A stretch of DNA of 64,000 bases. It comes from a virus. The DNA is taken from the IMG/VR virus record IMGVR_UViG_3300045049_000504, positions 1 through 64,000 of that record, one strand, 5' to 3'. Shown here piece by piece: positions 51,102 through 62,925 of the stretch (its first letter is position 1; every line of letters starts with the position of its first letter). The notes under the pieces were generated by a model that saw only the letters and a program-made list of their open reading frames with translations, was not told the DNA's origin and made no database searches. The position numbers and the translations under genes were made by a program.

Positions 51102-51439
51102 TGACCAGAGTGCCGAGTACGTGGCCCGAGATTGATTTTGAACTGGTGCAACCACAAGGGGCGACTCCGCCGACCGCGGACGACGGTCCCTTTCTGCGTG
51201 CCAGCACGCTCGCTCCCGATGGCACACCGCTCGCCATACAGGCGGACCTCCGGCACGTTGCCGAAGAGCAAGCGCGCGGGATGTTGGCGGAGTGCCTGCG
51301 CGCGCTCGTCGGCACGCGGCTGCCGCCGCCCACGGGCCAGGAGACCGCGCCGGGCGTGGCCGCGCATCCCACTGAGCGGCGCTTTGAGTACGTGGGCGGC
51401 GTGGACTTCCAGCGCTACCCGGGCCTCGACGAAGGATGA
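51101..51439 (+). CDS. 112-aa protein, unknown, atypical composition
   Basis: ATG with GGAG; sequence MTRVPSTWPEIDFELVQPQG ... ADLRHVAEEQARGMLAECLRALVGTRL. Base use again differs from neighbours. No family recognised. Confidence 0.45.
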   Translation: MTRVPSTWPEIDFELVQPQGATPPTADDGPFLRASTLAPDGTPLAIQADLRHVAEEQARGMLAECLRALVGTRLPPPTGQETAPGVAAHPTERRFEYVGGVDFQRYPGLDEG

Positions 51440-51444
51440 TAGCC

Positions 51445-51573
51445 ATGTCCATTGGCCCCTCGCGCAAGCAGGTGCTGAACCTCGTCGCCCCCGCCATCGG
51501 CACCCTCGTCGGGCTCGCGGTCCGCGTCGCGGCGGGGACGCTCGGCCGCCTGCTAATCGAGATCGCCCGATGA
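51445..51573 (+). CDS. 42-aa membrane peptide
   Basis: MSIGPSRKQVLNLVAPAIGTLVGLAVRVAAG... one membrane or amphipathic helix. ATGA overlap with the polymerase gene start. Confidence 0.45.
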   Translation: MSIGPSRKQVLNLVAPAIGTLVGLAVRVAAGTLGRLLIEIAR

Positions 51574-53897
51574 GCTTCGGCGACGAGCGCGACTGGGCGT
51601 CGGAGCTGCCGCAGTTCCGGGCGCTCGACCTCGAGACGCACCTGATGGAGCAGGGCATCCTCGCTCCCAAGATCGTCTGCGGGTCGGGCGCCCGGTTCGA
51701 CGTCGCCGGCCAGGTCGAGGGGCACTTCATCCCCGACTGGCAGGCGGCGCTCGCCGAGGCGCGCGAGCTGCTCGAGGACCCCGAGGTCGTGATCGTCGGC
51801 GCCAACGTCGCCTACGACCTCGGGTGCCTGGTCGCGGCCGACCCGTCGCTGCTGCCGCTCGTGTTCCGGGCGTACGGCGCCGGCCGCGTCTACGACGCCC
51901 TCGTCGCCCAGTCCCTCGACGCGATCGCCCGGGGCGAGCTGTACGTCGAGCCCGGCACGCGCCAGCCCATGCGCGGGCGGTATTCGCTCGACACCTGCGT
52001 GCGCCAGACCCTCGGGCGCGACGACGCCAAGGATCACGACTACTGGCGCAAGCGGTACGCGCTGCTCGACCCCGTGCCGCGCTCGGAGTGGCCAGCCGAC
52101 GCGCTCCAGTACCCCGTCGACGACGCGAAGAACACGCTCGAGCTGGCCGGCGCGCAGGTCGCCGGCGGCGGGCTCGGCGCCGCGCCCGGACCGCACCGCA
52201 ACCTCGGCGACCTGCCGGCGCAGGTCGAGACCGCGTGGGACCTGCACCTCGGCGCGATCTGGGGTTTCCGCACGAGCCGCGAGCGCGTCGCGCGCCTGCG
52301 CGCCCGCGTCGAGGCGCAGCACGCCGCCTTCGTCGACAAGTTCCGCGCGCTCGGCTTCATCAAGCTCCCCGTCGAGGGGCACGGCACGGCGTGTCGGTGC
52401 AAGGACTGCCGGGCTGCCGCCGAGTCGAAACTCGACCGCCGCGCCGTCAAGCGCGCCGTCGTGCGGGCGTACGCGACGTCGGAGGTCGGCCCGTGCCCGC
52501 GCTGCGTCGGCGGCAAGGTCCTGTCGCAGAAGTCCGGCAAGCCCGTCAACTGCGACGCGTGCGACGGCACGGGGCTCGACATCGACGCGTCGGGGGCGCC
52601 GCGCACCGACGGCGGCGGCGTGAGCGCCGACCGCGACTCGCTGCTCGAGTCCGGCGACGAGGACCTCATGGCCCTCGGCGAGAACGAGGCCGAGAAGATC
52701 CGCGACACCTACCTGCCGTTCCTCGAGTCCGGCGTCGAGCGGCCCATCTCGCTCCGCCCCAACGTGCTCGTGGCGTCGGGGCGCACGTCGTACGACGGGC
52801 TCATCCAGCTCCTGCCTAGGGAAGGCGGCGTCCGCGAGTGCATCGCCGCCAGGCCGGGCTACGTCTTCTGCTCGGTCGACTACGCCGCGCTCGAGCTGTG
52901 CACGCTCGCGCAGGTCTGTCTGTGGGTGCTCGGCAAGTCGACGATGGCCGACACCATCAACGCCACCGGCGACCCCGGCATGCTGCACACCGCGCTCGCC
53001 GCGCAGCTCGCCGGCTGCACGACGGAGGAGATGGTCGGGCGGCTCAAGAGCGCCGACAAGGTCGTCGCGATGATGGCCAAGCGCTACCGCCACGCCGCCA
53101 AGGCCGGCAACTTCGGCTTCCCCGGCGGGATGGGCGCGTACAAGTTCGTGCTCTCGAAGCGCAAGAAGAACGAGGGGTCGACCGAGGCGCCCGACGGGTT
53201 CAAGTATCCCGGCATCCGGTTCTGCCTCCTCCTCGGCGGCGCCGAGCGCTGCGGCGTCGAGAAGTTCTCGCAGCCCGACCGCAACGGCAACCCGATGCCG
53301 CCGATCTGCCGGGCGTGCTTCGACCAGGTCAACGACGTCCTGCGCCCCGCCTGGTTCCGCCAGTGGGACGACATCGGCCCGACGTCGAAACCCGGCACCT
53401 ACTTCGCGTGGGTGCAGGACCGCATCGGCGAGTGGGGCGACGGCGAGCTGCCGTGCTTCGGCACGCACCGCGTCCGCGGCGGGCTCGACTTCACGAACGG
53501 GTCGAACAACGGGTTCCAGGCGCTCGCGGCCGACGGCGCGAAGAACGCGCTCCGCAAGCTCGTGCGCGAGTGCTACCTCGACGAAGGTTCGCCGCTGTGG
53601 GGCACCAGGCCGATCTTCTTCGTCCACGATGAGATAGTGGCGGAGATCCCCGAGGAGCGCGCCGCGCTCGCCGGGCCGCGCATGGCGGAGGTCATGGTCG
53701 CCGCGATGCGCGAGTACGTCGAGGACGTGACGGTGAAGGCCGAGCCGGCGCTGATGCGGCACTGGGTGAAGATCGCCGAGCCGGCGTACGTCGGCGTCGA
53801 CGACGGGTCGCTCAACGAGAAGGGCAAGCCGTGGGACAAGCCCGCGCCGGGCAGGGTGCTCGTGCCGTGGGACGACTACCACGAATACGCGTACTGA
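51570..53897 (+). CDS. family A DNA polymerase with 3'-5' exonuclease
   Basis: 775 residues. Exonuclease motif I RALDLETHL at about 17-26 and NVAYDLG; polymerase motif A CSVDYAALELC at about 433, motif B AKAGNFGFPGGMGAYKF at about 511, motif C FVHDEIVAE at about 682. A segment at 270-330 adds two Cys pairs (CRCKDC, CPRC ... CDAC), a zinc knuckle insert. Replicates the phage genome with the primase-helicase. Confidence 0.9.
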   Translation: MSFGDERDWASELPQFRALDLETHLMEQGILAPKIVCGSGARFDVAGQVEGHFIPDWQAALAEARELLEDPEVVIVGANVAYDLGCLVAADPSLLPLVFRAYGAGRVYDALVAQSLDAIARGELYVEPGTRQPMRGRYSLDTCVRQTLGRDDAKDHDYWRKRYALLDPVPRSEWPADALQYPVDDAKNTLELAGAQVAGGGLGAAPGPHRNLGDLPAQVETAWDLHLGAIWGFRTSRERVARLRARVEAQHAAFVDKFRALGFIKLPVEGHGTACRCKDCRAAAESKLDRRAVKRAVVRAYATSEVGPCPRCVGGKVLSQKSGKPVNCDACDGTGLDIDASGAPRTDGGGVSADRDSLLESGDEDLMALGENEAEKIRDTYLPFLESGVERPISLRPNVLVASGRTSYDGLIQLLPREGGVRECIAARPGYVFCSVDYAALELCTLAQVCLWVLGKSTMADTINATGDPGMLHTALAAQLAGCTTEEMVGRLKSADKVVAMMAKRYRHAAKAGNFGFPGGMGAYKFVLSKRKKNEGSTEAPDGFKYPGIRFCLLLGGAERCGVEKFSQPDRNGNPMPPICRACFDQVNDVLRPAWFRQWDDIGPTSKPGTYFAWVQDRIGEWGDGELPCFGTHRVRGGLDFTNGSNNGFQALAADGAKNALRKLVRECYLDEGSPLWGTRPIFFVHDEIVAEIPEERAALAGPRMAEVMVAAMREYVEDVTVKAEPALMRHWVKIAEPAYVGVDDGSLNEKGKPWDKPAPGRVLVPWDDYHEYAY

Positions 53898-53954: not shown

Positions 53955-54445
53955 TCCGGGCCATCATCGTCGGCGAGGACAACCCGCGCTCGAGCGACCC
54001 GCGGGACGCGCTCTTCCCGTATCCGATAAACTGCGCCGGCGAGCGGCTGCAGCGGCTCGTATTCGGCGTGTCGGTCGAGACGTACCTCAGCGACTACGAG
54101 CGCGTGAACCTCTGCGAGTCGGGGCGCTGGTCGGCGAGGGTCGCGCGCGAGAAGGCGTACCAGGTCGGGATCCGCGCGAGCCTGCTCGGCGGCGGCGCCA
54201 AGATCGTCATGCTCGGGCGCAAGGTCGCCGACGCGTTCGACCGCAGCTGGACCGGCGTGCCGCGCGAGCTGTTCACCGCCGCCGGCCCGTTCGTGCTGCT
54301 GCCGCACCCGTCGGGTCGCTGCCGCGAGTGGAACGCCCCTGGCGCGTTTGCGCGCGCCCGCAAGCTCCTGGTCGACGTCGGCGTCGTGCCGACCTGTCAG
54401 TTCGAATGCGCCGCACCAGGTTGCGGCGGAGGGTGCCGCACATGA
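53951..54445 (+). CDS. uracil-DNA glycosylase superfamily-like protein
   Basis: 164 residues from GTG. IIVGEDNPRSSDPRDALFPYP (motif A-like GExxP) and LLPHPSGRCREWNAPGAF (HPS motif near the end) follow the UDG-superfamily plan. The catalytic Asp/His details differ from family 1. May remove uracil or act on modified bases. Located in the nucleotide cluster. Confidence 0.5.
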   Translation: MIRAIIVGEDNPRSSDPRDALFPYPINCAGERLQRLVFGVSVETYLSDYERVNLCESGRWSARVAREKAYQVGIRASLLGGGAKIVMLGRKVADAFDRSWTGVPRELFTAAGPFVLLPHPSGRCREWNAPGAFARARKLLVDVGVVPTCQFECAAPGCGGGCRT

Positions 54446-54861
54446 AGTTCTACGTCGCCGCTTCGCTGAAGGACGAGGCCGCCGCTCGGGCCGTCATGGA
54501 CGCGCTCCGCGGTCGCGGGCACGAGATCACGTTCGACTGGGTCGCTGAGGAGGAGCGCGGCGCGCAGTGGGGCGAGGACAAGCGCCGCGAGGTCGCGCAG
54601 CTCGAGATCGACGGCGTTCGCGCCGCCGACGCGGTCGTGTTCATCGCGCCCGGCGGCCGCGGCGCGCACTGCGAGCTTGGCGCGGCGCTCGCGCTCGGCG
54701 CGCCGGTGCTCCTCGTCGGAGTGTGGGAGTTCTCGCTCTTCTACTACCACCCCAACGTGACCTGGCTGCGCGGCGTCCTCCGCCGGGACCTCACCGACGA
54801 GCAGCACGGCCCCGCGTTCGCGGACATCGTCGCCGAGCGCGCCGAGAATCTCGCGTGCTGA
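54442..54861 (+). CDS. nucleoside 2-deoxyribosyltransferase-like
   Basis: 139 residues. KFYVAASLKDEAAARAVMDALRGRGHEITFDW and ADAVVFIAPGGRGAHCELGAALALGAPVLLVG match the NDT fold, with Glu in HCELGAAL as the usual nucleophile. Would exchange bases on deoxynucleosides for salvage or modified-base synthesis. ATG overlaps the previous stop. Confidence 0.6.
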   Translation: MKFYVAASLKDEAAARAVMDALRGRGHEITFDWVAEEERGAQWGEDKRREVAQLEIDGVRAADAVVFIAPGGRGAHCELGAALALGAPVLLVGVWEFSLFYYHPNVTWLRGVLRRDLTDEQHGPAFADIVAERAENLAC

Positions 54862-55408
54862 GCCTCGACGAGGTCGAGGCCGCCGGCGGCTACACGGTCA
54901 TCTACGCCGACGCGCCGTGGAGGTACACGCAGAACGGGCGCGGCGCGGCGGAGAACCACTACCGCACGATGTCGCTCGAGGAGATCCGCGCGCTCCCCGT
55001 CGCGCGCATCGCCGCGCCGACGTCGGTGCTCTTCCTGTGGGGCACCTGGCCGAAGCTGCTCGAGGTCCAGTCGGTGATCCCGGCGTGGGGCTTCGAGTAC
55101 AAGACCCTCGGCTTCACCTGGATCAAGCACTACGGCAAGTCGGAGAAGCCGTTCTGTGGCGGCGGGTCGTGGACGCGGTCCAACGAGGAGTTCTGCCTCC
55201 TCGCGGTCCGCGGCAAGCCGCGGCGCGCCGACACGCAGGCGGCGAGCACCCCGGCGAGCATTCCGCGAAGCCGGCGATCGTGCGCGATCGCATCGTGCAG
55301 CTCCTCGGCGACGTGCCGCGGATCGAGCTTTTCGCCCGCGAGCGCGTCGCGGGTTGGGACGCATGGGGCCTTGAAGTGCCCGGAGGTAGTGACATTGTTC
55401 TGGGATAA
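54855..55408 (+). pseudogene. MT-A70 adenine methyltransferase, frame-disrupted
   Basis: GTG start. YADAPWRYTQ (DPPW-type active site), LFLWGTWPKLLEVQSVIPAWGF and SNEEFCLLAVRGKPRRADTQ in one frame; then a -1 shift near 55240-55259 is needed for GGEHPGEHSAKPAIVRDRIV, RIELFARERVAGWDAWGLEV and a TAA at 55406. The unshifted frame runs to 55469 with unlikely sequence. So the gene is broken or has one missing base. It would place N6-methyladenine. Confidence 0.75.
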
Positions 55409-55473
55409 GGTTGACGTCGGTGACGACCCGAAGCTGGGCGCGCCCGACGTAGACCTGACGGGAGGCTGAGGCG

Positions 55474-56882: not shown

Positions 56883-57350
56883 ATGAGCGAAGCTCCGAAG
56901 CTGGACACCGGCAAGCTGCCGATGCACCTCATCCCGCCCGCGTTCCTGCGGGCCATCGCGGCCGTGCTCGCGTTCGGCGCGAAGAAGTACGCCGCGTGGT
57001 CGTGGACCAAGGGCAAGGAGTGGTCGCGCGACTACGCCGCGATCCAGCGCCACCTCAACGACTGGTACGACGGCGTCGACAACGACCCCGAGACCGGCCT
57101 GTCGCACCTGGCACACGCCGCCTGCGATCTCATGTTCCTCTTCATCTCGCAGCTCTGCGCGCTCGGCACCGACGACCGCCCGGCGATGACGCGCCCGCCG
57201 CGCCCGACGCTGGCGCCGCCCGCGTTCGACCTGCCGGTCCTGCCGCTCGACCCGAGCGACCTCACGGTGACGTGCGTCGGCGAGACCTCCGTCGAGCGCA
57301 ACTTCTTCCACGTCGGCGACGCGTCGCCGTACAAGAAGAGCGACCAGTGA
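56883..57350 (+). CDS. dATP/dGTP diphosphohydrolase-like
   Basis: 155 residues. KLPMHLIPPAFLRAIAAVLAFGAKKYA and IQRHLNDWYDGVDNDPETGLSHLAHA match the phage dGTP diphosphohydrolase N-terminal family (all-alpha MazG-like), with the E/D-rich metal site. A C-terminal tail is Pro-rich. Depletes purine dNTPs and may favour altered base use. Confidence 0.7.
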   Translation: MSEAPKLDTGKLPMHLIPPAFLRAIAAVLAFGAKKYAAWSWTKGKEWSRDYAAIQRHLNDWYDGVDNDPETGLSHLAHAACDLMFLFISQLCALGTDDRPAMTRPPRPTLAPPAFDLPVLPLDPSDLTVTCVGETSVERNFFHVGDASPYKKSDQ

Positions 57351-58899: not shown

Positions 58900-59267
58900 G
58901 CGAGCAGAATGTGACGTGGACGCTCGGCGCCGTCAAGGCCTGGGACAACCTCTGCTCGGCGGCGAGCGACCCCGTCGCCGACGTCGCGCTCGCGGTCGCG
59001 TGGGTGCAGCAGGCGTCGGGCGGCCGCGACCCGGCGCTGATCTCGATCCGAGCCGGCGCGTGGGCAGCGCTGCTGGCCTCTGAGTCGGGGCGACAGATGA
59101 CGTTCGCGCGCGGCATGTCCGTCGAGAAGTTCCGGCAGTACACCGGCGCGCGCGACGTCAGGCTGTTCGCCGACGACTCGCCCGTCGACTACGACCTGCG
59201 CGTGGTCGGCGCCGACGGCGAGACGTTCGAGCTGCGCCACGCGTGCATGTTCCAGTGGAGGAGTTAG
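58896..59267 (+). CDS. 123-aa protein, unknown
   Basis: NVTWTLGAVKAWDNLCSAA ... GRDPALISIRAGAWAALLAS and a C-terminal strand pair (YDLRVVGADGETFELRHA). No family recognised. Starts in ATGA overlap. Confidence 0.5.
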   Translation: MSEQNVTWTLGAVKAWDNLCSAASDPVADVALAVAWVQQASGGRDPALISIRAGAWAALLASESGRQMTFARGMSVEKFRQYTGARDVRLFADDSPVDYDLRVVGADGETFELRHACMFQWRS

Positions 59268-59269
59268 TG

Positions 59270-59836
59270 ATGAACGACTTCCAGGTCAAGGTCCGCGCCT
59301 ACTGCCGCGACATCATCGGCGCGCCGCACGGGCCGGCGGACCCGCAGATCCGCGACGGGCGCCTGCGCGCGAGGCTCATGCTCGAGGAGTCTCTCGAGAC
59401 CGCCATCGGGCTCGTCGGCGAGGACGAGGCCTTCAAGGTCCTCGACGAGATCGACGGCGAGACCTGCCGCAAGCTCGCCCGCGACGGGCGGGTCGGCTGC
59501 GGGCCCGACATCGTCGAGGTCATCGACGGCGTCTGCGACACGATCTACGTCGCGCTCGGCACGGCCGAGGCGCTCGGCGTCGACGTCGCGCCGTTCTTCG
59601 AGCTGGTCCACGCCGCGAACATGGCGAAAACACCCGCGCCTGTCGACGGGCACGGCAAGCGCGGTGGCAAGCCCGACGGGTGGCAGGACCCGAAGCACGG
59701 TATCCGCCGCCTGCTGGAGGAAGTGCGCCGGCGCGCCCGCGACGCCCACGAGTACGGCACGTTCTGGGACGGCGGTGAGGTCACCGACGACATGATCGTG
59801 TCCGTCGCCGACGCGATCGAGAGGAGGGGAGAGTGA
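59270..59836 (+). CDS. MazG-like NTP pyrophosphohydrolase
   Basis: 188 residues, GGAGGAG site. RARLMLEESLETAIGL and VEVIDGVCDTIYVALGTAEALGVDV hold the E-E-x-x-D-like metal site of all-alpha NTP-PPases. Ends in a 27-base repeat. Cleaves nucleoside triphosphates in the modification cluster. Confidence 0.7.
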   Translation: MNDFQVKVRAYCRDIIGAPHGPADPQIRDGRLRARLMLEESLETAIGLVGEDEAFKVLDEIDGETCRKLARDGRVGCGPDIVEVIDGVCDTIYVALGTAEALGVDVAPFFELVHAANMAKTPAPVDGHGKRGGKPDGWQDPKHGIRRLLEEVRRRARDAHEYGTFWDGGEVTDDMIVSVADAIERRGE

Positions 59837-59863: not shown

Positions 59864-59931
59864 GCCGCTTCTTCAGCGAGGCCGAGGAGCAGCTCGAGGC
59901 CTACGCCAACGAGCTGGTGTCCCGTGGCTAA
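59860..59931 (+). CDS. 23-aa peptide
   Basis: GTG preceded by the duplicated GAGGAGGGG; SRFFSEAEEQLEAYANELVSRG is a helix ending in overlap with the methylase start (GTG 59924). Possibly a leader. Confidence 0.35.
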   Translation: MSRFFSEAEEQLEAYANELVSRG

Positions 59932-61003
59932 ACGGAAATACCGCGCGCTCGGCGCGCACATCTACGCCGGCGGCCACACGCTCGGGGTCCGTGCGACGAA
60001 GCGGTTCGACACGCTCGCGCACCTCGAGGAGGGCGCGTTCGGCGCCGAGACGTCGCGCAAGAACCTCGGCGTCGAGGTCCGCGTCGGGATGGACCAGTGG
60101 AAGGCCGATCTCTGGCGCAACGACGTCGACTGGCTCTACACCAACCCGCCGTGCGCGGCGTGGTCCAGCGCCGGCACGCGCCGCGGCGCCGCGCACGACC
60201 TGGCGCGCCACACCGAGCGCGTCTTCGACCTCATCCCCGAGGTGCGCCCGACGGTGTTCTCGTGGGAGTGCGTCACCAACGTGGCGACGGCCGGCAAGGA
60301 GTTCGTGCTCGAGCGCGCGCGCCAGGCGCTCGGCTGGGGCTACGACGTCCACCTGGTCACGCTCGAGGTCGCCGACCTCGGGCTGCCGTCGATGCGCAAG
60401 CGCTTCTTCTTCGTCGCGTCGAAGGTCGCGATGGAGTTCCCGCTCCCGTTCGCCCGCCGGACGACGGTGCGCGAGGCGTGGAAGGACCTGCCCGCCGACC
60501 GCGGGCCCGGCGCGGGCGCGTCGGCGGAGGAGGTCAAGCTCCTGAAGCTCATGCCCGTCGGGCAGCACAACGGCTCGCTGCGCAACTTCGTCGACAACGA
60601 CCTGCGCGCCGCGGCGGAGAAGTACGGGCTCAAGATCCGGCCCGCGTTCTCGCAGAAGCGCCTGCGCTGGGACGAGCCGTCGTACACGGTCATGGGCGGC
60701 TCGCATCTGTGGCACCCCGACGAGCCGCGCCGCATCACCATCCTCGAGCAGCAGGTCCTCGCCGGCTACCCGGCGGACTACAAGTTCTCGGGGTCGATCC
60801 AGAACCAGTACGCCGAGATCGGCAAGGCCGTGACGCTGCCGGCGGCGAGATGGCTCGCGACCGCGGTCGCCGGCTCGCTCGACGCGGACGCCGACGGGAC
60901 CGCGCCGAACGGCTCGCGCCGCAACGCCCGCAAGCGCACGTTCCAGGTGCACGACTTCACCGGCGGGCGGTTCGCGAAGCTCTACGAGGGGGTGACGCCG
61001 TGA
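59924..61003 (+). CDS. C5 cytosine-specific DNA methyltransferase
   Basis: 359 residues from GTG. Motif I-like IYAGGHTLGVRA; motif IV TNPPCAAWSSAG with the catalytic Cys77; motif VI WECVTN instead of ENV; motif VIII MRKRFFFVA; late YAEIGKAV as motif X. Target recognition lies between 200 and 280. Modifies cytosine in phage DNA. No matching restriction enzyme is seen. Confidence 0.82.
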   Translation: MAKRKYRALGAHIYAGGHTLGVRATKRFDTLAHLEEGAFGAETSRKNLGVEVRVGMDQWKADLWRNDVDWLYTNPPCAAWSSAGTRRGAAHDLARHTERVFDLIPEVRPTVFSWECVTNVATAGKEFVLERARQALGWGYDVHLVTLEVADLGLPSMRKRFFFVASKVAMEFPLPFARRTTVREAWKDLPADRGPGAGASAEEVKLLKLMPVGQHNGSLRNFVDNDLRAAAEKYGLKIRPAFSQKRLRWDEPSYTVMGGSHLWHPDEPRRITILEQQVLAGYPADYKFSGSIQNQYAEIGKAVTLPAARWLATAVAGSLDADADGTAPNGSRRNARKRTFQVHDFTGGRFAKLYEGVTP

Positions 61004-61275: not shown

Positions 61276-61454
61276 AGGGCGCGCCGCCGCGCGTCGGCCC
61301 GCCGTCGGTGCACGACCGCATGTCGCCCGCCGAGGAACGCGCACTCGGCGGCGCCGTACTGGCGCTGCTCGTGTTGCTCGGGCTGCTGTGCGTCGTCAAG
61401 GCCTGCTACGACGCGCCGCCGCCCGCCGCGACGACGTCGCAGGTGAGACCGTGA
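61272..61454 (+). CDS. 60-aa membrane protein
   Basis: GTG overlap. Polar start, then GGAVLALLVLLGLLCVVKACYD. Single membrane helix. Unknown role. Confidence 0.45.
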   Translation: MKGAPPRVGPPSVHDRMSPAEERALGGAVLALLVLLGLLCVVKACYDAPPPAATTSQVRP

Positions 61455-62023
61455 AGCGCCTGCTCCTCGACGTCGACGGGCCGCTGACCGCGAGCTTCGC
61501 CGAGTTCACGTGCCGCGAGCTGCGGCTCCGCGGCGTCGAGCGCGCGCGGCCCGGCGACATCACCGACTGGGACATCTTCCAGTGCTTCGGCGTCAAGGGC
61601 ACCGAGGTCGAGAAGAGGGTCTACGCGGCGATGGGCGAGCCCGGCTACTGCGAGGAGTTCGAGCCGCGCGCCGGCGCGCTCGAGTTCTGCCGCTGGGCGC
61701 GCGAGCGGCTCGCCGTCTACGCCGTCACGGCCGCGCTCGGCTCGAGCCCGACGTGGGCGCACGACCGCGAGCGCTGGCTCAAAGACCAACTCGAATTTGA
61801 TGGAAAGCGCGTGATCTTCGCGGCCGACAAGTCCCCCGTCGCTGGCGACATGTTCGTCGACGACAAGCCCTCGAATCTCGTCGATTGGCAGGCGGCGAAC
61901 CCCGGCAAGCTCGCCGTACTGTGGCGGGCGACGTACAATCGCGACTTCGCCTGGCCGCACGTCGCGAACAACTACCTCGACCTGGCGGCGTACGTCGCCG
62001 AGATCGAGCGCGCGAGGCTCTGA
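61451..62023 (+). CDS. 5'(3')-deoxyribonucleotidase-like HAD protein
   Basis: 190 residues from GTG. LLLDVDGPLTASFAEF (motif I DxD), VTAALGSSPTWAHDRERWL, and FVDDKPSNLVDWQ as motif IV. Resembles NT5C-type HAD enzymes acting on dNMPs. Sits between membrane genes and ThyA-like gene. Confidence 0.7.
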   Translation: MKRLLLDVDGPLTASFAEFTCRELRLRGVERARPGDITDWDIFQCFGVKGTEVEKRVYAAMGEPGYCEEFEPRAGALEFCRWARERLAVYAVTAALGSSPTWAHDRERWLKDQLEFDGKRVIFAADKSPVAGDMFVDDKPSNLVDWQAANPGKLAVLWRATYNRDFAWPHVANNYLDLAAYVAEIERARL

Positions 62024-62925
62024 TGGACTTCACCGCCGACAGCTTCGACGAGGTGCAGTACCACCTGCTCGAGCGGCTCTACTACGATTACAAGTACGAG
62101 TCCAAACCGCGCGGGATGCTGATCCGCGAGGACCTCTGCGTCGGGTTCGAGCTGACCGACCCGCGCGCGCGGCTCACGTCGGCGCCGGCGCGCGCCGCCA
62201 ACTACGGCTTCGCCGCGGGCGAGTTCCTGTGGTACCTGCGCGGCGCGCGGGATCTCGAGTCGATCTCGTACTACAACAAGCGTATGCCGTCGTTCTCCGA
62301 CGACGGGCTCACGGTCAACTCCGCGTACGGCGCGCGGCTCGGCATCGCGGACGGCAGCCCCGCGTCGTCGCAGTGGGCGCGCGTCGTCGACGAGCTGGCG
62401 CGCGACCGCGATTCGCGCCGCGCGGCGCTGACGATCTTCGCGCCGTCGGACCTGCGCGCGGCCACCAAGGACGTCCCGTGCACGCTGTCGTTGCAGTTCT
62501 TCATCCGCGACGGGCGGCTCGACCTGCACGTCTCGATGCGCTCGAACGACGTGATCTGGGGCCTCTGCAACGACATCTTCAGCTTCACGCTCATGCAGGA
62601 GGTGATGCTGCTCGACCTCCGCGAGCGCGGTGCCGACGTCGAGCTGGGCTCGTACTACCACACCGCCGGGTCGATGCACCTCTACGAGCGCCACTTCCCG
62701 ATGGCGCACGACATCCTCCACGAGGACGTCGAGCCGGCCGCGCCGATGCCGCCGCTGACGTCGCGCGCCGAACTGGGGCGGCTCCTCGCCGACGAGGCGA
62801 ATCTGCGCGCCGGCTTCCGCACGGTCGCGACGTACGACGTCGGCAGCGGCGAGGCGTGGCTGCTCGCGCGGCTGCTCAAGCACCGCTGCAGGCGCGACGC
62901 AGAACTCGCGAAGGCCGCGACGTGA
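62023..62925 (+). CDS. ThyA-family pyrimidine methylase, candidate dCMP-type
   Basis: 300 residues. Catalytic Cys153 in DVPCTLSLQF; MRSNDVIWGLCNDIF aligns with thymidylate synthase QRSxDxxLGLPFNI, where the dUMP-specific Asn is here Asp184; SMHLYERH supplies the His. Asp at this position is the hallmark of dCMP hydroxymethylases. So it may make hydroxymethyl- or methyl-dCMP. Alternative: a divergent dTMP synthase. Confidence 0.7.
   Translation: MDFTADSFDEVQYHLLERLYYDYKYESKPRGMLIREDLCVGFELTDPRARLTSAPARAANYGFAAGEFLWYLRGARDLESISYYNKRMPSFSDDGLTVNSAYGARLGIADGSPASSQWARVVDELARDRDSRRAALTIFAPSDLRAATKDVPCTLSLQFFIRDGRLDLHVSMRSNDVIWGLCNDIFSFTLMQEVMLLDLRERGADVELGSYYHTAGSMHLYERHFPMAHDILHEDVEPAAPMPPLTSRAELGRLLADEANLRAGFRTVATYDVGSGEAWLLARLLKHRCRRDAELAKAAT

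Follow-up and report, generated by a model that had tools for sequence, protein, structure and literature searches.

The open reading frame at positions 62023 to 62925 on the plus strand of the window (the whole 64,000-base stretch analyzed, bases 1 to 64000 of a 65118-base IMG/VR virus record; such uncultivated records may be fragments) very probably encodes a dCMP 5-hydroxymethylase of the ThyA fold. Enzymes of this kind are already known from phages, T4 gp42 being one, and the predicted protein is another example. The reading frame runs from an ATG start to a TGA stop and specifies 300 amino acids, and its codon-position GC (0.70/0.49/0.90, with an upstream TTG taken as the start) is what coding DNA of this genome usually shows. 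A sequence-only reading had placed a ThyA-family gene here; its coordinates proved exact, and the protein matches PF00303 above the Pfam cut-off (E 2.2e-22). On the other hand, all NCBIfam thymidylate synthase models scored far below their cut-offs. The best PHROGs placement was phrog_5131, the best solved relative found by sequence search was MilA (E 9e-43), and a family profile search ranked MilA first and T4 gp42 next.

The residue expected to read the base is Asp184 (codon at 62572 to 62574, plus strand). Pairwise and multiple alignments place it on Asn177 of Escherichia coli ThyA, on Asp179 of T4 gp42, and on the equivalent Asp of MilA. Thus, the proposal that GLCNDI aligns with GLPFNI of ThyA, with Asp replacing Asn, was borne out, and the alignment with T4 gp42 and MilA that the sequence-only reading had called for gave Asp at this column in both. 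Its further suggestion of a cytosine substrate is supported when Asp184 is taken together with all the T4 gp42 active-site residues tested; Asp184 by itself, the only residue which that reading had cited, is insufficient, as a dCMP methylase or a flavin-dependent dCMP hydroxylase could carry it too. The residues that point to a folate hydroxymethylase are Asp150, Ser100-x-Tyr102, and Asp176. Asp150 opens the stretch Asp150-Val-Pro-Cys153 (62470 to 62481, plus strand), which holds the catalytic Cys with an Asp at C-3 and corresponds to Asp145/Cys148 of T4. The second hydroxymethylation mark, Ser100-Ala-Tyr102 (62320 to 62328, plus strand), corresponds to T4 Ser94-x-Tyr96. In T4 gp42, the Asp at C-3 and the Ser-x-Tyr pair form the signature of hydroxymethylation as opposed to methylation, and the D145N substitution abolishes hydroxymethylation (PMC6400193). 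Asp176 lies in Arg173-Ser174-Asn175-Asp176 (62539 to 62550, plus strand) and equals T4 Asp171, a member of the hydrogen-bond network at the folate site that is Asn in the flavin-dependent hydroxylase. Altogether, none of the 16 active-site columns compared differs between the protein and T4 gp42, and the two share a fold (PDB 1b49 and 1b5d for gp42), although overall identity in the structural alignment is only about 24 to 25%. The catalytic Cys153 and the Glu67 of the thymidylate synthase fold are both present and are invariant in our alignment A3.

Asp184 is not there by chance, since it is conserved in at least 90% of 63 aligned proteins and the column carries Asp in 92 of the 97 proteins of a larger alignment. 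In those 92 proteins, the residue at C-3 is also Asp and the Cys is followed by Thr. The five with Asn at the 184 column are E. coli ThyA, whose residues at the 184 column, at C-3, and after the Cys are Asn/Leu/His, and four proteins of the dUMP-hydroxymethylase type (from SPO1, Montesquieu, LuckyBarnes, and locus L004), which have Asn/Asp/Asn. Because most loci of the 97-protein alignment were fetched with patterns that include the KD..CT stretch and not the Asp184 column, only the latter column is independent of that choice. The MetaGPA study found that contigs with modified cytosine are best told apart from unmodified contigs at two positions, the counterparts of E. coli 177 and 147 (PMC8670742); here these are Asp184 and Thr154.

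We predicted the structure with AlphaFold2 from a 63-row alignment of the window protein and its relatives at the collected loci, and the model had a mean pLDDT of 96.2 and a pTM of 0.93. When the model was searched with Foldseek, the seven best matches were all chains of MilA, the CMP 5-hydroxymethylase of Streptomyces rimofaciens (PDB 5jnh and 5b6d), with TM scores of 0.85/0.81 (0.85 by query length) and 35% identity over the whole chain; thymidylate synthases and T4 gp42 followed. This ranking and the whole-chain match indicate a predicted scaffold that is MilA-like, including a helical C-terminal region that T4 gp42 lacks, around an active site that is T4-like in its residues. In the tree, the protein falls within a strongly supported clade (100/99) of eight viral-contig proteins. 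Deeper nodes are uncertain, and some branches were flagged as long.

Four other identities were weighed. One, highly improbable, is a thymidylate synthase or dUMP hydroxymethylase in which the Asp is a neutral substitution and which makes dTMP or hydroxymethyl-dUMP. The family does bear the name thymidylate synthase in Pfam, NCBIfam, and PHROGs, and the phage has no other thymidylate synthase of the same family; however, Asp150, Thr154, and Ser100 likewise belong to the cytosine or hydroxymethyl type, ThyA having Leu, His, and Pro, respectively, at these places, and the thymidylate synthase models fell below cut-off, as noted above. A canonical ThyA would be expected to show Asn177, His147, and Leu at C-3, and was rejected given Asp184, Thr154, and Asp150. 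A dUMP hydroxymethylase such as Bacillus phage SPO1 gp29 shares the fold and the Asp at C-3 with the window protein but is expected to have Asn both at the 177 position and after the Cys, as do all four relatives of this type at the columns of Asp184 and Thr154; it was likewise rejected.

There is an equally slight chance that the enzyme is a flavin-dependent dCMP 5-hydroxylase (5-hydroxy-dCMP synthase) of the kind found in Mosigvirus and HY126 phages. According to a 2026 paper, the 5-hydroxy-dCMP synthase that Mosigvirus uses is a homologue of the hydroxymethylase (PMC13390438). Such an enzyme shares the fold, the cytosine-reading Asp, and the catalytic Cys with the window protein, and the recently solved structures 9iqc and 9iqu, almost the same in sequence as the Mosigvirus protein moskry_66, are among the structural matches of our model (TM 0.85 to 0.88 by target length). 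Yet it has Glu at C-3, Asn for Asp176, Gln for Asn175, Val for Gly180, and Phe for Tyr221, whereas the window protein is of the folate type at all five, diagnostic residues that were taken from a single lineage. Since the flavin enzyme thus differs at 5 of the 16 columns and the window protein at none from T4 gp42, folate-dependent dCMP hydroxymethylation is favored.

We consider it just as improbable that the product is 5-methyl-dCMP, made by a dCMP methylase of the kind reported for phage Xp12. Asp at position 177 alone suffices to convert ThyA to a dCMP methylase (PMC8670742), but the Asp150 at C-3 together with Ser100-x-Tyr102 is the hydroxylation signature whose Asp is indispensable in T4. 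Finally, no solved relative is closer than MilA in sequence or in fold, C-terminal region included, but it is extremely improbable that the enzyme is a CMP hydroxymethylase of the MilA type with ribonucleotides as substrates, as the protein has the deoxyribose-type pair Arg132 and Ser174 (T4 Arg123 and Ser169) in place of Lys133 and Ala176, which favor CMP in MilA and whose A176S/K133R exchange reverses the preference to dCMP (PMC5175136), and as its clade is separate from MilA plus its Leuconostoc relative. By the same pair of residues, dCMP rather than CMP would be the substrate.

On the plus strand, the gene order leading up to the predicted dCMP hydroxymethylase is a PRA-PH/MazG-type NTP pyrophosphohydrolase (59243 to 59836; PF01503, E 3.3e-8), a C5-cytosine DNA methyltransferase homologue (59924 to 61003; PF00145, E 5.3e-26; TIGR00675 below cut-off), small open reading frames, an NT5C-type 5'(3')-deoxyribonucleotidase-like HAD protein (61451 to 62023; PF06941, E 3.1e-11), and the hydroxymethylase. 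The stop codon of the nucleotidase gene overlaps the start of the hydroxymethylase gene (TGATG, 62021 to 62025), which suggests that the two are translationally coupled. The pyrophosphohydrolase, about 2.2 kb upstream of the hydroxymethylase gene, is a candidate dCTPase. It is homologous to gp30 of Stenotrophomonas phage AXL3 (phmmer, 2.6e-8), small homologues of it are encoded close to the hydroxymethylase in L088, L091, and L095, and PF01503 is among the domains that co-occur with thymidylate synthase on modified-cytosine contigs in MetaGPA (PMC8670742). The viral-contig scan returned no relative of the C5-methyltransferase. Searches of the window with Pfam, with PHROGs, and with phmmer using the relatives' genes gave no nucleotide kinase, glycosyltransferase, or carbamoyltransferase, and no dCMP deaminase was found there either. 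The record terminates about 2.2 kb past the hydroxymethylase gene, and the missing genes could sit beyond its end.

Other nucleotide-pool genes lie near this cassette. A DUF5664/dGTP_diPhyd_N dNTP pyrophosphohydrolase-like protein is encoded at 56883 to 57350 on the plus strand (PF18909, E 2.5e-31), and tested relatives of this type act on dATP, dGTP, and dUTP (PMC12884076). PurZ was searched for and is absent, so this gene does not point to 2-aminoadenine DNA, and that reading was rejected. A nucleoside 2-deoxyribosyltransferase-like protein is encoded at 54328 to 54861 (plus strand; PF05014, E 1.8e-7), and an MT-A70 adenine methyltransferase homologue at 54567 to 55469 (plus strand). The C-terminal part of the latter seems to carry on in another frame (RDRIVQLLGDVPRIELFARERVAGWDAWGLEVP), an apparent frameshift that is either real or a sequencing error.

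The window comes from a GC-rich bacterial virus, a Mu-like myovirus for which close relatives were not found. Mu-like morphogenesis genes (portal, protease, baseplate J, Gp48, Gp45, and GpP) occupy 8000 to 33000 on the minus strand, and a VapE/PolA replication module adjoins them; judged from its genes, a Mu-type myovirus virion is combined with a different replication strategy. The replication-module relatives L008, L100, and L101 have no hydroxymethylase in the stretches examined, and L008 carries an Asn/Leu/His thymidylate synthase instead. The hydroxymethylase gene therefore looks like an accessory acquisition.

From the residue pattern, the predicted fold, and the gene order, we infer the following chemistry and pathway. 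Cys153 would attack C6 of dCMP while Asp184 reads and protonates the N3/N4 edge of the cytosine, and one carbon would be passed to C5 from methylene-tetrahydrofolate. A water molecule placed by Asp150 would then quench the methylene to yield 5-hydroxymethyl-dCMP and tetrahydrofolate. The candidate dCTPase may supply dCMP by degrading dCTP, a host kinase or an unseen phage kinase may phosphorylate the product, and the phage's family A DNA polymerase (51132 to 53897, plus strand; PF00476, E 1.5e-10; phrog_17, E 2.4e-36) may insert the modified nucleotide into DNA.

By judgement rather than computation, we think it reasonably probable that virion DNA contains a modified cytosine, and somewhat doubtful that cytosine is replaced completely. 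Three features of the window are misfits with complete, T4-like modification. One is that no kinase, glycosyltransferase, carbamoyltransferase, or dCMP deaminase gene was found; the T4 neighborhood, by comparison, has a beta-glucosyltransferase. The second is the C5-methyltransferase in the cluster: such an enzyme cannot act on cytosine already substituted at C5 and would be useless on fully substituted DNA. The third is a depletion of GAGCTC, with 2 sites in the window (9730 and 51033) against 41.8 (sd 6.3) expected from shuffles (about 42 to 45), and 1 in coding DNA against 37.3 (sd 4.4) expected from codon shuffles. GAGCTC is not depleted in AXL3 (44 versus 43.2), L019 (17 versus 20.3), or L023 (18 versus 18.6). 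The simplest reading of the depletion is that the phage DNA has been exposed over a long time to a GAGCTC-cutting restriction enzyme, which suggests pressure from such an enzyme in the host, and this strong avoidance counts against long-standing complete modification. It is possible that the hydroxymethylase was acquired recently, that modification is partial, or that the restriction enzyme is one that 5-hydroxymethylcytosine does not block. An unlikely version is that 5-hydroxymethylcytosine is partial or sugar-free and stands alongside the product of the phage's own C5-methyltransferase, giving DNA with both 5mC and 5hmC; such mixed DNA would be in keeping with the missing glycosyltransferase and with the continued avoidance of a single restriction site.

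Relatives of the predicted hydroxymethylase occur in varied settings. The viral-contig proteins L019 to L021 and L024 (IMG/VR) are 51 to 53% identical to it, with identical active-site residues. Around L019 lie an RNR, a DnaE-type polymerase, a dCTPase/dUTPase-like protein, and a glycosyltransferase-like protein; homologues of the C5-methyltransferase and the NT5C-type nucleotidase were not detected there at 1e-5. Other relatives have glycosyltransferase-like, RGP, and kinase-like genes in their vicinity. The single match in a chromosomal scan with the window protein was a MilA-type gene in Leuconostoc litchii MB7 (L099, 5989 to 6960 of the 1.24-Mb contig NZ_SDGY01000001.1), which has the MilA-type Lys/Ala, pairs with MilA in the tree (100/100), and is a candidate CMP hydroxymethylase gene.

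In AXL3, gp28 (24942 to 25751 of L102) has cytosine-type residues as in the window protein but is annotated, and was described in PMC7504290, as a thymidylate synthase; that phage also has a kinase, a dCMP deaminase, and ThyX. Only 2 of 37 enzymes cut AXL3 DNA, both with A/T-only sites (PMC7504290), and on our reading a cytosine-type gp28 would explain its resistance to enzymes with G or C in their sites. Automatic annotation by Pfam, NCBIfam, or PHROGs would name the window protein a thymidylate synthase, a label that the present analysis corrects. The finding adds a cytosine-modification candidate for a GC-rich Mu-like myovirus, and a case in which one genome combines a predicted hydroxymethylase, a cytosine methyltransferase, and strong avoidance of a restriction site. 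If the cytosines of this phage are modified, about one-third of its bases would be affected.
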